Source of the DNA: Herbinix sp.
GTDB taxonomy: Bacteria > Bacillota > Clostridia > Lachnospirales > Lachnospiraceae
Direction: 5' to 3'
Length of the DNA stretch: 64,000 nucleotides
Assembly: GCA_029256105.1 (NCBI GenBank)
Contig: JAQSYO010000023.1
Span: 1-64,000 of the forward strand
Shown here in pieces: positions 26,649 through 36,649 of the stretch. Below the pieces are notes generated by a model. That model was not told the DNA's origin, made no database searches, and saw nothing but the letters and a program-made list of their open reading frames with translations. The stretch's first letter is position 1. The number at the start of each line of letters is the position of its first letter. A program made the translations under genes and the position numbers.

Positions 26649-27116
26649 ATGCTAATTAATACGAGACATTTTGGTGAAATAAATCTGGATGAAAGCAAGG
26701 TTATCTATTTTGATAACGGGATCTTGGGCTTTGAAGAATACAAGAAATACACACTTCTTTTTGACGACGAGAAGGGTGAAAGACCGGACATCTCCTGGTT
26801 GCAGAGCTTGGACGAACCTGCACTTGCAATTCCGGTAGTTAGTCCATTTTTAGTAAAGCCTGATTATAATCCGGAAGTGGAGGATGAACTTTTAAAATCC
26901 TTGGGAGAACTTACAGAGGATAATATCGTTGTTATGGTATCCGTGACGATACCCACGGATGTTGAGAAGATTTCAGCTAATTTGAAGGCACCTTTTATTC
27001 TTAATTCAGATTCGAAAAAAGGGGCACAATTAATTATAGAGAACTCAGACTATGAAGTTAAATTCCGCTTTTATGAACAGTTAAAGGCACGCAAGGCAGC
27101 AAAGGAGGGCAAATAA
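26649..27116 (+). CDS. fliW: flagellar assembly factor FliW
   Basis: The protein has 155 residues and an ATG after GAAGGGAAGG. MLINTRHFGEINLDESKVIYFDNGILGFEEYKKYTLL is the conserved FliW beginning. SWLQSLDEPALAIPVVSPF and the late APFILNSDSKKGAQLI also fit. FliW binds flagellin in the cytoplasm and, when free of it, binds CsrA and blocks its repression of flagellin translation. csrA starts one base after its stop, the standard pairing, and the flagellin leader with CsrA-type sites lies 3.6 kb downstream. Confidence 0.95.
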   Translation: MLINTRHFGEINLDESKVIYFDNGILGFEEYKKYTLLFDDEKGERPDISWLQSLDEPALAIPVVSPFLVKPDYNPEVEDELLKSLGELTEDNIVVMVSVTIPTDVEKISANLKAPFILNSDSKKGAQLIIENSDYEVKFRFYEQLKARKAAKEGK

Positions 27117-27117
27117 T

Positions 27118-27339
27118 ATGTTAGCCCTATCACGAAGAACGAACGAATCGATCATTATTGGTAATGAAATAGAAATTACAGTTTTAGAAGTTAAAGGGGA
27201 CCAGGTTAAGATTGGCATTAGTGCGCCTAAGTCAGTTCCCATCTACCGTAAAGAAATTTATTTACAGATAAAAGAATCTAATAAGGAAGCAGCAGGAACA
27301 TTGGCTACGGACGATATACTAAAGAAATTATTCGAATAA
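27118..27339 (+). CDS. csrA: carbon storage regulator CsrA
   Basis: The protein has 73 residues. MLALSRRTNESIIIGNEIEITVLEVKGDQVKIGISAPKSVPIYRKEIY contains all conserved CsrA strands, including the RNA-binding first strand (LALSRR) and the IGIxAP...V..R.E motif. The Firmicute-type C-terminal helix that FliW contacts is present (KESNKEAAGTLATDDILKKLF). The ribosome site AAAGGAGG is inside the end of fliW, so the two are co-translated. CsrA is expected to repress flagellin synthesis by binding its leader (see 30650-30732). Confidence 0.96.
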   Translation: MLALSRRTNESIIIGNEIEITVLEVKGDQVKIGISAPKSVPIYRKEIYLQIKESNKEAAGTLATDDILKKLFE

Positions 27340-30584: not shown

Positions 30585-30611
30585 TAAAGTTTTGCAAATC
30601 TATACCGATAT
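30585..30611 (+). promoter_or_regulatory. SigD (sigma-28) type promoter of flagellin
   Basis: TAAA is followed after exactly 15 bp by ACCGATAT (consensus TAAA-N15-GCCGATAA). Transcription should start near 30618 and give a leader of about 120 nt. Confidence 0.8.
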
Positions 30612-30649
30612 ATATTACATGTAAGGAATTCACTTACGAAATTTTTCTT

Positions 30650-30732
30650 CATGGAGGAGCGTACGGCCTGAAGGTAGAAAAATAAAAAACTCTAGCAGCA
30701 TGGAAGCTGCTAACAACAAAATTTCAAGGAGG
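30650..30732 (+). promoter_or_regulatory. flagellin leader with three CANGGANG CsrA-type motifs
   Basis: CATGGAGG (30650-30657), CATGGAAG (30699-30706) and CAAGGAGG (30725-30732) all fit the CANGGANG pattern favoured by CsrA. The middle one is presented as the hexaloop ATGGAA on a perfect 7-bp stem (TAGCAGC/GCTGCTA). The last one is the Shine-Dalgarno of the flagellin gene. This layout matches known CsrA repression of hag in Bacillus, where one site overlaps the ribosome site. fliW and csrA lie upstream in the same window. Confidence 0.7.
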
Positions 30733-30740
30733 AATATATT

Positions 30741-31571
30741 ATGATAGTACAACACAATATGGCAGCAGCCAATACGAACAGACAATTAGGTATCACTACA
30801 GGAAGTCTTGCAAAATCAACCGAAAAGTTATCATCTGGTTACAGAATTAACCGCGCTGGTGATGATGCAGCTGGTCTTTCTATTTCCGAAAAGATGAGAG
30901 GACAGATCAGAGGTCTTGATCAAGCTTCTACAAATGCACAGGATGGTATTTCTTTAATTCAGACAGCAGAAGGTGCATTACAAGAAACTCACTCTATTCT
31001 TCAAAGAATGAGAGAATTAGCAGTTCAGTCTTCAAATGATACTAACGTTACTGCTGACCGTGATTCTATCAAAGCTGAGTTAACATCTTTAACTGATGAA
31101 ATTACACGTATTGCTACTCAGACTGAGTTCAATACTAAGAAACTTTTGGATGGATCTTACTCATCAACAGTAATGAATTTCCAAGTTGGTGCCAATCATG
31201 ATCAGAATATCTCTTTAAACATCAAAAAGATGAGTGCATCTGGTTTAGGTGTACAGGCTTCAAAAGTAGCTGATATGGTTTCTTCATACACAGATGCAAC
31301 AGCAGCTATCACTACAATTAATGCAGCTATTACAAAAGTATCTACTGAAAGATCTTCACTTGGTGCTGTTCAGAACAGATTAGAGCATACGATTACGAAT
31401 GCTAATAATACTTCTGAGAACTTACAAGCAGCTGAATCTCGTATTCGTGACGTTGATATGGCTAAGGAAATGGTTTCTTACTCTAAGAGCAATATCCTTC
31501 AGCAAGCAGCTCAGTCTATGTTATCACAAGCTAATCAGTCAACACAGGGTGTTTTATCACTGTTACAGTAA
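30741..31571 (+). CDS. fliC: flagellin
   Basis: The protein has 276 residues and an ATG after CAAGGAGG. The N-terminal D0/D1 (IVQHNMAAANTNRQLGITTG... SSGYRINRAGDDAAGLSISEKMRGQIRGL) and C-terminal D1/D0 (ERSSLGAVQNRLEHTITNANNTSENLQAAESRIRDVDMAKEMV) are fully conserved. The central domain is short. It is rich in S and T (about residues 130-200), the likely sites of O-glycosylation by the Maf protein encoded next. Codon use is highly biased, as for an abundant protein. It has its own SigD promoter and a very strong terminator. Confidence 0.97.
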   Translation: MIVQHNMAAANTNRQLGITTGSLAKSTEKLSSGYRINRAGDDAAGLSISEKMRGQIRGLDQASTNAQDGISLIQTAEGALQETHSILQRMRELAVQSSNDTNVTADRDSIKAELTSLTDEITRIATQTEFNTKKLLDGSYSSTVMNFQVGANHDQNISLNIKKMSASGLGVQASKVADMVSSYTDATAAITTINAAITKVSTERSSLGAVQNRLEHTITNANNTSENLQAAESRIRDVDMAKEMVSYSKSNILQQAAQSMLSQANQSTQGVLSLLQ

Positions 31572-32008: not shown

Positions 32009-33880
32009 ATGGAGCATTATGAACATAATCTACAGATCATAAAAAACAATAGAAAATATCTATATGACCAAATCGTTAACGAAGAAGCCTATATAGTTGA
32101 TGAATATATAAATGTTACCTCTGCTCCAACAAAGACGAAAGATTTTGCACTCGAAGTTGAGTGTGATGGAAACCTTATTCGTCTAAATAGTAAATATAAT
32201 CCATTGCAGGAAGCACAAAAATGGGCTGAGCAACATCAGATAAAAAATTTGGATACGGTTATTGCTATGTTTGGTCTAGGTAATGGAATTTTTTTACGAG
32301 AGTTTTTAAAGAAAATGAATAAAGATAATATTATTATAGTTTATGAGCCCTCCTATTTGATATTCAGACATGTGCTTGAGTTGTATCCAATGGAAGATAT
32401 ACTAATGGATCATAGGGTAATCATTGTTATTCAAGGAAAAAATGACTTTGAATTTTCCTATTATTTGTCACGCACTTTAACTTGGATGAACTTATATTCA
32501 CAGATAGAGTGTCTACATCCTGGCTATGATAAAATATTTAATGATTCATATCAAGCGTTTAAAGGAAAGCTTCAAGATAATATGCTCAACAATTTAGTTG
32601 CGAAAAATACACATGGTGAACACGGAAAGACGGTGGTGGAAAACGCCATTTTAAATATTATTCATTTAAAAGATTCCATTTCCTTTTGGGATTTATACAA
32701 TGATCTACCAAAGGATGTTCCGATAATTATCGTTTCTGCAGGTCCATCATTATTAAAAAATATTGATGTACTGAAAGAGGCAAAAGGGAAATCTATTATA
32801 TTAGTGGTGGATAGAGCGTACGAGACACTACTCAAACATGGCATTGAGCCTGATTTTGTTATTCTTTTGGATGCAAAAAAAGCTCTAAAGCACTGTGGAA
32901 ATCAAGTGGGATTTATGACCCCATTGTTATGTAAACTCGAAGGAAGCCAACCAATATTAAATAATCATGGCGGCAAAAAGGTTATTTATGACTGCTCGGA
33001 ATATATTCAAAATATTTATAAAAAGTTAAGTAAGAATATGGGAACCATTACTACAGGGGGATCGGTTACAACGGCTGCATTTGTTTTAGCAGTGAAATTT
33101 AATTTCAAACGTATTGTACTTATTGGCTCTGATTTAGCTTACGCAGGAGGGCTGTCCCATGCAGGGCTGGACCATATCCCGGAAAAATATAATAGTGGCC
33201 TAATCGAGCTATATGTTGAAGACATATACGGAGGGAAAATTAAAACCAGATATGATTGGTATATCTTTTTACGTTGGTTTGAAAGCGTAATAATGCAAAT
33301 GCCGGAGTATGATGTAATTGATGCAACCGAGGGTGGGGCAAAAATTAAAGGGACACGGATCATGACGCTGAAAGAAGTAGTGGATCAATATTGTACGAAA
33401 GAAGTAGATTGCGAAGCTATTATTAATCATAAAATGTCAACCTTTGATCGGCTTGAACTCGAGTCCATTTATGAGTATTTGAATGTTGGAAGAAAAGAAT
33501 TAGATGAGATAAAGGAAATAGCGCGAAAAACAATCTATGATTGTCAAAAGCTTATTATTAATGCAAAAACAAATAGAAGTGATTCATCGGAAAGCCAAAG
33601 ATTAGTCAAAAGATTATTTGAAGCAAATAAAAACATTGAGAACATGTCCATATTCACCTTAGTTAATCAATATGTGCTTAGTGTAGGCACGGATGAAATT
33701 GAAGAATTATATTTTATGTCTAATGACAAGAAGAAAGACGAACTATCCTCCTATCAGACTACGGAAAAGATATATAACTGTATTGTGGAGGCTTGTGATT
33801 TTATAATACCCAAATTGGGTTATGAAATAGTTGCTTTCAAGGATAAGATTAGCATGGATTCAGTTGAGCCACAAGAATAG
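32009..33880 (+). CDS. maf: Maf (motility-associated factor, DUF115) flagellin glycosyltransferase
   Basis: The protein has 623 residues and an ATG after AAAAGGTGG. The central MptE-like/DUF115 domain (about residues 215-410) contains KDVPIIIVSAGPSLLKNIDVLK, GIEPDFVILLDA and a GSVTTAAFVLAVKFNFKRIVLIGSDLAYAGG segment with the expected SDLA-type motif. An N-terminal Rossmann-like part (AMFGLGNGIFLREFL) and a C-terminal helical part complete the Maf architecture. Known Maf proteins transfer nonulosonic acids (pseudaminate or legionaminate) to Ser/Thr of flagellin in the cytoplasm. Its position right after flagellin, followed by CMP-nonulosonate genes, supports this role. Confidence 0.9.
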   Translation: MEHYEHNLQIIKNNRKYLYDQIVNEEAYIVDEYINVTSAPTKTKDFALEVECDGNLIRLNSKYNPLQEAQKWAEQHQIKNLDTVIAMFGLGNGIFLREFLKKMNKDNIIIVYEPSYLIFRHVLELYPMEDILMDHRVIIVIQGKNDFEFSYYLSRTLTWMNLYSQIECLHPGYDKIFNDSYQAFKGKLQDNMLNNLVAKNTHGEHGKTVVENAILNIIHLKDSISFWDLYNDLPKDVPIIIVSAGPSLLKNIDVLKEAKGKSIILVVDRAYETLLKHGIEPDFVILLDAKKALKHCGNQVGFMTPLLCKLEGSQPILNNHGGKKVIYDCSEYIQNIYKKLSKNMGTITTGGSVTTAAFVLAVKFNFKRIVLIGSDLAYAGGLSHAGLDHIPEKYNSGLIELYVEDIYGGKIKTRYDWYIFLRWFESVIMQMPEYDVIDATEGGAKIKGTRIMTLKEVVDQYCTKEVDCEAIINHKMSTFDRLELESIYEYLNVGRKELDEIKEIARKTIYDCQKLIINAKTNRSDSSESQRLVKRLFEANKNIENMSIFTLVNQYVLSVGTDEIEELYFMSNDKKKDELSSYQTTEKIYNCIVEACDFIIPKLGYEIVAFKDKISMDSVEPQE

Positions 33881-33938
33881 GTTGAAGAAAGTGATATACG
33901 ATAAAACTCGAAGTATATTATACGAAAGGATGAATACG

Positions 33939-34943
33939 ATGAACGTATTAGCGATTATACCGGCAAGAAGTGGATCAAAGAGCATTCTACATAAAAACAT
34001 CAGATTATTTAATAGTAAACCTATGCTCGGTTACTCTATTGAACATGCAAAGGGATCAAAATTGATCAATCGGATCATCTTAAGTACGGATAGTGAGGAA
34101 TATGCAAGTATCGGCAGGGAATACGGAGCGGAGGTTCCTTTTTTACGACCGAAGGAATTTGCAAGTGATACTGCTCTGGATGTCGATGTATTCTATCATT
34201 GCTTAGAATTCTTACGAGAGAAAGAGGGCTATCAGGCAGATATTGTAGTACAACTGAGACCAACGTATCCAATACGAAATATTGATGATATAGATGCTAT
34301 GATACAAAAATTATTGGACAATCCCTTATACGATTCGGTACGAAGTATTGCACCGGCAAAAGAGATTCCATTTAAGATGTGGTATAGGCAAGAAGACGGA
34401 ACGATTACACCTATAATAAAAGATATGAAAGAATGCTATAATATGCCAAGGCAGCAGCTGCCCCAGGTATTTTATCAAAATGCATGCATCGATGTTGTCC
34501 GAGGAAGTGTTATACTAGAAGAGCACTCCATGTCAGGAGACAATATTGTTGGGTATGAGATGAATAAAAATTATGACATTGATACAGAAGCAGAATTCAA
34601 ACTAGCGGAAGAGTATATGAAAATTACATCAGGAAATACAAGGTTTGTTTTTGATATTGATGGTGTTATTGCTAAAATTCAAACGGATAATAATTATGCA
34701 TTGGCTGAGCCAAATCAACCAATGATAAATTTAATTAATAAGCTGTATCAAATGGGAAATCAGATTATACTGTTCACAGCTCGAGGATTTGTTACAGGAA
34801 TAGATTGGAAGGAAATAACCGAACATCAATTGAGCAGATGGGGTCTTTTATATCATGAATTACAATTTGGCAAACCAAATGCCGATTATTATATTGATGA
34901 TAAAATGATATCGATTGACAAACTATTTGAATTATTTGAATAA
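33939..34943 (+). CDS. acylneuraminate (nonulosonate) cytidylyltransferase fused to a HAD-like phosphatase domain
   Basis: The protein has 334 residues from the ATG at 33939, eight bases after AAAGGA; the track start at 33831 overlaps maf and is unsupported. Residues 1-~225 form the NeuA/LegF-type CTP transferase (VLAIIPARSGSKSILHKNIRLFNSKPML, with the P-A-R-x-G-S-K nucleotide motif and DVVR metal-site region). Residues ~230-334 are a small HAD domain, with FVFDIDGVIA (D-x-D) as motif I and YYIDDKMIS as the acidic motif. It should make CMP-nonulosonate and may also dephosphorylate a 9-phosphate precursor. The donor would feed the Maf protein. The fusion is unusual but known in related clusters, from memory. 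Confidence 0.88.
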   Translation: MNVLAIIPARSGSKSILHKNIRLFNSKPMLGYSIEHAKGSKLINRIILSTDSEEYASIGREYGAEVPFLRPKEFASDTALDVDVFYHCLEFLREKEGYQADIVVQLRPTYPIRNIDDIDAMIQKLLDNPLYDSVRSIAPAKEIPFKMWYRQEDGTITPIIKDMKECYNMPRQQLPQVFYQNACIDVVRGSVILEEHSMSGDNIVGYEMNKNYDIDTEAEFKLAEEYMKITSGNTRFVFDIDGVIAKIQTDNNYALAEPNQPMINLINKLYQMGNQIILFTARGFVTGIDWKEITEHQLSRWGLLYHELQFGKPNADYYIDDKMISIDKLFELFE

Positions 34944-34990
34944 GGAGAGTTGCTGCAAGTTATAGGTTACTATGCAGCAACTCCTTTTAT
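34942..34990 (+). terminator. hairpin after the cytidylyltransferase, terminator candidate
   Basis: AAGGAGAGTTGCTGCA pairs with TGCAGCAACTCCTT around a 15-nt loop, followed by TTATGTATA. The T tract is short, so read-through is possible. Confidence 0.6.
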
Positions 34991-35146
34991 GTATAATATG
35001 GTGAAAATGGATAATGAAACACAAGAAATTTTACAATCGAAAGAACTTAAATCTAATATTTTAATATATTTTGTCGATATATATGATATAATTAAAAAAA
35101 TAAGTCGAATACATTTTACATAGAATTAGTGATACGGAGGACTAAT

Positions 35147-36649
35147 ATGACGGAGAATAAGAACCTATTCACGGATTTGTTTATCTTTGAAATGGCAAAC
35201 AGTCATCAAGGTAGTGTGGAACATGGAATTGATATTATTAAGGCAATGAGTAGGATTGTGAGAAAGTATAATATAAAAGCTGCTGTAAAATTACAATATC
35301 GTAATCTGGATACTTTTATCCACCCGGATTATAAGGAACGAACTGATGTGAACCACATCCCAAGGTTCATGAGTACTAGATTGAATTTTGATCAGTATAC
35401 CCAGCTTATAGATTCCATACATGAAGAAGGTATGATTGCAATGAGCACTCCGTTTGACGAAGCAGGTGTGGATTGGTGCATGGATCAAGGAGTGGATATT
35501 ATTAAAGTGGCTAGCTGTAGTTCACTTGATTGGCCATTATTAACTAAAATCGCGCAGACTCAGAAACCGGTTATCATTTCGACAGGGGGAAAAACTTTAT
35601 CGGACATCGATAAGCTATATAATTTCTTTACCCATAAAAAATGTGAATTTGCTTTTCTTCACTGTATTGCAGAATATCCAGCTCCGCTAGAACGACTTCA
35701 ATTAGATTTTATTGATCGTATGAATCGCAGGTATCCTGAGGTAACAATCGGATATTCGGGACATGAAGAGCCTAATGATAATATTGTACCAATGCTCGCT
35801 ATCGCAAAGGGAGCCAGAATACTAGAACGTCACGTTGGTCTCCCAACAGATACAATTACTCTAAATTCCTATTCCATGAATCCCGAGCAGGCAGACCGTT
35901 GGGTTAAGGCGGCATTAGATGCGAAAACCATCTGTAAAATAAAAAAAGAGGATGATAAATATATCAGCCAAGAAGAAGTAGATTCACTCCGTTCTCTGAT
36001 GAGAGGGGTATATCTAAATAGAATGGTGAAGCAAGGAGATCCTATTATGCAAGAGGATGTTTTCTTTGCTATGCCATGTCAGGATAAGCAGATGAACAGT
36101 GGAGATTTTACGGAAGGTATCATAGCAAGCAGAGATTATGCAGTTAACGAAGCATTATTGGAAAAGAAAAAGATTACAGATATTGGATTGGTGAGAAGTG
36201 TAGTACATGATGCCAAAGGTATGTTATATGAGGCAGGAATTGCCCTTGGAGATGATTTTGAAGTCGAACTGTCTCATCATTATGGAATGAAACACTTTAG
36301 GCAGGTTGGTGCGATTATCATCAGTATTATTAACCGCGAATATTGCAAAAAGCTATTGGTGATACTACCGGGGCAGAAACATCCAATGCACATGCATAAA
36401 GTAAAAGAAGAGACGTTCCAGCTCCTTTATGGTGATTTGACCATACACCTGGAGGGAAAAGAAAGAACAATGAAAGCCGGGGATATTCAGACCGTTCTCC
36501 GAGAGGAAAAACACTCTTTCACCTCAAATAAAGGAGCAATCTTTGAAGAGGTGTCAACAACGCATATAAAAAATGATTCCTATTATGAAGATTCTATAAT
36601 AAGAGCGTTGGATCCGATTGAAAGGAAGACGATATTAAAGAAATGGTAA
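35147..36649 (+). CDS. NeuB-type nonulosonate synthase with SAF and C-terminal cupin domains
   Basis: The protein has 500 residues from the ATG at 35147 after CGGAGG. Residues ~5-265 form the NeuB TIM barrel (FIFEMANSHQGSVEHGIDIIKA; later MSTPFDEAGVDWC and PVIISTGGKTL). Residues ~285-345 are the SAF domain (GVYLNRMVKQGDPIMQEDVFFA). Residues ~395-475 are a cupin with HPMHMHKVKEETFQLLYGDLTIHLEG, a metal-type HxHxH motif. The barrel condenses phosphoenolpyruvate with an N-acyl-hexosamine. The cupin extension is not part of normal NeuB and may isomerise or bind a sugar. It partners with the fused cytidylyltransferase upstream and is different from the plain NeuB at 57392. Confidence 0.88.
   Translation: MTENKNLFTDLFIFEMANSHQGSVEHGIDIIKAMSRIVRKYNIKAAVKLQYRNLDTFIHPDYKERTDVNHIPRFMSTRLNFDQYTQLIDSIHEEGMIAMSTPFDEAGVDWCMDQGVDIIKVASCSSLDWPLLTKIAQTQKPVIISTGGKTLSDIDKLYNFFTHKKCEFAFLHCIAEYPAPLERLQLDFIDRMNRRYPEVTIGYSGHEEPNDNIVPMLAIAKGARILERHVGLPTDTITLNSYSMNPEQADRWVKAALDAKTICKIKKEDDKYISQEEVDSLRSLMRGVYLNRMVKQGDPIMQEDVFFAMPCQDKQMNSGDFTEGIIASRDYAVNEALLEKKKITDIGLVRSVVHDAKGMLYEAGIALGDDFEVELSHHYGMKHFRQVGAIIISIINREYCKKLLVILPGQKHPMHMHKVKEETFQLLYGDLTIHLEGKERTMKAGDIQTVLREEKHSFTSNKGAIFEEVSTTHIKNDSYYEDSIIRALDPIERKTILKKW

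Follow-up and report, generated by a model that had tools for sequence, protein, structure and literature searches.

Whether the flagellin leader of this Lachnospiraceae genome (4.8 Mb) carries a three-site, and hence stronger, version of the CsrA switch of Bacillus, as the original prediction had it, is the question raised by a cluster of CANGGANG motifs in the window (the whole 64,000-nucleotide stretch of DNA that was analysed). The flagellin gene (30741–31571, 276 aa, PF00669 and PF00700; this gene, the leader features, fliW and csrA are all on the + strand) lies in a flagellar cluster with the order flgK, flgL, fliW, csrA, flaG, fliD, fliS, FlgN-like gene and flagellin. The predicted presence of fliW (26649–27116, PF02623) and csrA (27118–27339, PF02599) in the same window was borne out; csrA is single-copy in the genome and encodes 73 aa, with R44 and N55 present. 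A sigma-28-type promoter, TAAA-N16-CCGATAT, was read from the sequence at 30585–30611 and fits the sigma-28 consensus of Butyrivibrio, a relative, quoted in PMC3720852. From this promoter we infer a leader of approximately 125 nt, and all three CANGGANG motifs consequently lie inside the transcript. They were found exactly as described, three within 83 nt: CATGGAGG at 30650–30657, CATGGAAG at 30699–30706 and CAAGGAGG at 30725–30732. The whole window contains 23 copies of CANGGANG on both strands compared to 17.5 expected from shuffles, and the expectation on one strand is approximately 0.011 per 83 nt, so that three copies in 83 nt are not due to composition, though one of them is the Shine-Dalgarno sequence, where GGAGG is required anyway.

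For comparison, flagellin leaders were gathered from approximately 300 family genomes, 80 named Bacilli and Clostridia genomes, and 245 class-wide genomes. Across the collected leaders, a hairpin with GGA in its loop at around −35 (termed BS1) and a ribosome site reading CAAGGAGG (BS2) were nearly universal. In the window, BS1 is the hairpin UAGCAGC(AUGGAA)GCUGCUA at 30693–30712, with 7 pairs and the GGA of the middle motif in the loop, which agrees with the predicted hexaloop on a perfect stem, while the last motif indeed overlies the Shine-Dalgarno sequence, here within a weak hairpin, AUUUC(AAGGA)GGAAU, at 30721–30735. In 238 distinct Bacillota leader windows, picked by motif only, BS1 stem positions 1–5 were paired in 93, 95, 94, 87 and 74%, compared to 5–59% in a control with slid registers, and each stem position showed 3–4 Watson-Crick types, i.e. 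compensatory changes. The distance between the two GGAs was most frequently 20 nt in the leaders and is 26 nt in the window. The sites also followed the regulator, co-occurrence being assessed against csrA rather than fliW. A csrA gene above the Pfam cut-off was present in 51 of 55 genomes with flagellin and in none of 20 without, and in csrA-containing genomes the ribosome-site CANGGA was found in 58 of 63 leaders and the BS1 hairpin in 56 of 63, compared to 0/4 and 1/4, respectively, in csrA-less genomes. One flagellate without detectable csrA (G339, leader L272) has kept a BS1-like hairpin, GGCAGAAATGCC, with GAA replacing GGA, a case in which the CsrA motif was lost naturally.

Since the two sites are structured and conserved and their occurrence follows that of csrA from genome to genome, control of this leader by CsrA and FliW is well supported by the comparative sequence data. 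The arrangement is the one already known from hag and flaA. In the FliW-CsrA-Hag partner switch of Bacillus subtilis, the hag leader has two sites, BS1 at A51–A55 and BS2 at C75–G82, and the same two-site arrangement has been predicted for C. difficile fliC (PMC8523840). The window shares with hag a sigma-28-type promoter, an upstream GGA hairpin loop, a GGA site over the Shine-Dalgarno sequence, a distance of approximately 20–28 nt between the GGAs, and fliW and csrA within the flagellar cluster, although the CsrA sites here are predicted ones. Similarly, the Campylobacter jejuni flaA leader, for which the arrangement was demonstrated biochemically with FliW as antagonist (PMC4894983), has two GGA hexaloops, 21 nt apart, in spite of belonging to a separate phylum. 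By analogy, CsrA presumably binds and represses at this leader: one CsrA dimer would sit on BS1 and BS2 and cover the ribosome site, and export of flagellin would allow FliW to strip CsrA off the leader, as in Bacillus hag. The Bacillus flagellin switch, as represented by this module, appears to be the rule among flagellated Lachnospiraceae, gut relatives included.

The proposed FliW-CsrA-flagellin switch is thus supported for BS1 and BS2, but its strengthening by a third site is not. Among family leaders, a BS1 hexaloop of ideal form is usual rather than special, and a third CsrA site was rejected as a conserved feature, as it is absent from most relatives and three CANGGANG motifs occur in just 7 of 249 promoter-bearing leaders. 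Three functional sites acting as a stronger switch are therefore unlikely, even with three exact motifs in the window, six further leaders that share this number, and an excess of GGA 5' of BS1. The place of the third motif is occupied by a conserved hairpin, of which CATGGAGG (30650–30657), the first putative CsrA site, forms the 5' arm and bulge; the hairpin core persists without GGA in leaders L024, L058, L085 and L087, and the hairpin is also kept in csrA-less genomes. Between promoter and BS1, family leaders contained 101 GGAs compared to 77 ± 5 expected with most of the element core removed, while CANGGA was not in excess. Possibly, extra weak CsrA contacts 5' of BS1, or the composition of the stems, lie behind this surplus. 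A reading of the region as a GGA-rich sponge was rejected, since the element core explains the excess in part and CANGGA does not share it.

What the original prediction left out is a conserved 13-mer, GGAGCGTACGGCC, at 30656–30668, which overlaps the first motif, and the hairpin to which it belongs. This hairpin (30642–30682) was assigned from its fold and from homology with relatives. Its stem consists of UUUUU/AAAAA, CUUC (30647–30650)/GAAG (30670–30673) and AGG (30655–30657)/CCU (30667–30669), with a 4-nt 5' bulge, AUGG, and it closes on a 9-nt loop, AG-CGUACG-G (30658–30666), in which positions 30660–30665 form a self-complementary hexamer. The 13-mer occurs once in the source genome. Among 299 family genomes it was matched exactly 23 times: 16 of these matches lie shortly 5' of a flagellin start and outside long reading frames and 7 within other frames; variants were present in approximately 35 family leaders. 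The loop-closing pair (−3,+7) was G-C in 26, A-U in 5 and U-A in 2 of 35 family leaders, and this covariation sets a clear stem register with a 9-nt loop of the form RG-YGUACG-R. A pentaloop, GC(GUACG)GC, was considered for the Lachnospiraceae core and discarded for the 9-nt loop, as (−3,+7) pairs in 33/35 leaders and the inner C-G is broken in about ten. The window's own copy is a weak example. It folds poorly alone (z −0.70), its flanks pair no better than average, 11 other occurrences of like 3–4-bp structures were found in the window, and none of the other main hexamers is as weak as CGUACG (duplex estimate of −6.4 compared to −10.9 kcal/mol for the GCGCGC of HIV-1), so that the assignment of the element at this position rests on homology. 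Some Lachnospiraceae loops are moreover imperfect, e.g. CGUGCA and CGUACA. In a search of Rfam, neither the window nor the other leaders gave a family match above the gathering score, save an unrelated tRNA.

At the same place, leaders of other clades carry different self-complementary hexamers, i.e. GGGCCC, GGCGCC, UGGCCA, GCCGGC and CCCGGG, and CGGCCG in many Bacilli and Clostridia. Of the 88 family leaders, 38 had a GC-rich hexapalindrome in the stretch from promoter to BS1, as had 43 of the 64 named leaders; dinucleotide shuffles predict 14.8 for each set. The family and named sets gave rise to the palindrome idea; the class-wide set was drawn later and includes some relatives of the earlier sets, so that the counts are not fully independent. 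The tests were fixed before being run on a second set of 74 further leaders, in which 48 had a GC-rich hexapalindrome (18.7 ± 3.3 expected) and 26, approximately a third, had none, and in the control stretch 5' of the promoter the count was 4/69. Some of these palindromes (GCCGGC, CGGCCG) may in part reflect GC-rich islands. To separate loop from stem, the strongest hairpin of each leader was taken with its loop sequence ignored. Among the 9-nt loops obtained in this way, 17/102 were palindromic at positions 3–8 compared to 2.4 expected (14/55 compared to 1.5 in the second set), while palindromes at other loop offsets were near chance. The flanks of a palindrome paired better with each other than flanks swapped between leaders (0/20000 permutations, repeated in the second set), and a stem of at least 6 with a 2+6+1 loop was found in 21 of 268 leaders and only twice in 1285 kb of background. 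Loop changes were followed in the closest alignable pairs, pairs below approximately 0.7 identity being mostly misaligned and therefore excluded. The changes included CGTACG/CGGCCG within one genus (L221, L225, L232), TGGCCA/CGGCCG (L305/L223), and CGGCCG/TGGCCG via a G-U pair. As expected of a kissing-loop element like the dimerization initiation site of HIV-1, the self-complementary hexamer sits in a hairpin loop and remains palindromic through sequence change.

Palindromic DNA is the usual form of an operator, and an element just past the promoter, with some copies that are perfect dyads (L182, L280), could be taken for the binding site of a dimeric regulator. We consider this improbable, since the core varies freely among taxa with palindromy kept, and since the stem is not centred on the palindrome: an extra unpaired base lies on the 5' side in 28 cases and on the 3' side in 2, with 14 symmetric. 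Isolated non-Watson-Crick pairs in the stems were G-U in 8 cases and A-C in none, which together with the fixed sign of the offset favours a hairpin formed in RNA from the flagellin strand, rather than a dyad in DNA. Nor does the element act merely as an extra CsrA site, as it persists in 3 of 4 csrA-less leaders (L272, L292 and L297).

If the element acts as RNA, its loop could alternatively find its partner in a trans-acting RNA, or in the mRNA leaders of flagellin paralogues, instead of in its own copy. Many family genomes do have several flagellin genes, and a self-complementary loop is able to pair with any RNA bearing the same loop. Such pairing is nonetheless a doubtful explanation, given that no such RNA was seen, that the window's GGAGCGTACGGCC is unique in its own genome, and that antisense pairing does not require self-complementarity. 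Stem-loops at the 5' end are also known to stabilise mRNAs, and some copies of the element are almost perfect inverted repeats, from which a loop palindrome could arise as a by-product of a hairpin that is a mere protective or spacer structure. There is little likelihood of this, considering that palindromes cluster at one loop register in hairpins picked blind to loop sequence, and that the RG-YGUACG-R loop is retained in Lachnospiraceae while the stems are variable.

Taken as a whole, the leader probably comprises two modules, the CsrA-FliW switch at BS1 and BS2 and a separate palindromic-loop hairpin through which flagellin mRNAs would kiss. The hairpin, built partly from CATGGAGG and located 5' of the CsrA module, would present its self-complementary hexamer in the loop, and kissing of the loops of two identical mRNAs would render the flagellin transcript dimeric at least part of the time. 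That the partners are identical molecules is suggested by the loops, which vary among taxa yet remain palindromic; dimerization of the flagellin mRNA through this hairpin is thus a deduction from sequence patterns. On balance, we lean towards the broader proposal that flagellin leaders of Bacilli and Clostridia carry a hitherto undescribed kissing-loop dimerization element, separable from the CsrA sites and selected for self-complementarity and not for sequence, and that the mRNAs act as dimers. What a dimer would bring about can be guessed at: effects on transcript stability, a sensing of mRNA concentration, or co-packaging and joint delivery of messages at the export site.

The loop of the HIV-1 dimerization initiation site has 9 nt in a 2+6+1 layout, with purines beside its hexamer, and like the leader hairpins it holds a GC-rich self-complementary hexamer. 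Both the GC-rich palindromes and the purines next to them are of importance in HIV-1 (PMC5874298). Purines around the hexamer, two 5' and one 3', were seen in Lachnospiraceae, while other taxa were mixed. The likeness is one of sequence layout: the leader element belongs to a cellular bacterial mRNA, has its own sequences and shows no sign of a common origin.

Should the hairpin dimerize mRNA, motile cells would carry, on a message that ranks among their most abundant, a kind of cis-element not known to us outside viruses and a handful of non-coding RNAs. While BS1 and BS2 match a known arrangement, the palindromic-loop hairpin is an undescribed element; a search limited to open-access papers found no description of it for hag and nothing of relevance on flagellin-leader dimers or kissing loops, most subscription articles, the first study of the hag leader among them, lying beyond its range. 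FliW itself is reported to bind the hag leader weakly "for as-yet-unknown reasons" (PMC6529632), and the palindromic hairpin offers a candidate explanation, although the connection is speculative.

Directly 3' of the sigma-28 promoter, a further hairpin, GUAAG(GAAUUCA)CUUAC, was recognised from its fold at 30621–30637. It recurs in many Lachnospiraceae flagellin leaders, where like arms (AAGTAA..TTACTT) are seen, and possibly serves as a 5' stabiliser. The source genome has a second flagellin gene on contig C22 (L002), a frame of approximately 527 aa with a leader devoid of the conserved BS1/BS2 arrangement; since assembly contamination is 7.5%, this gene could be foreign to the genome. Finally, the region 3' of the flagellin gene in the window (32009–36649) encodes an MptE-like protein (PF01973), a cytidylyltransferase and a NeuB-type synthase, and resembles a gene cluster for the glycosylation of flagellin (nonulosonic acid).
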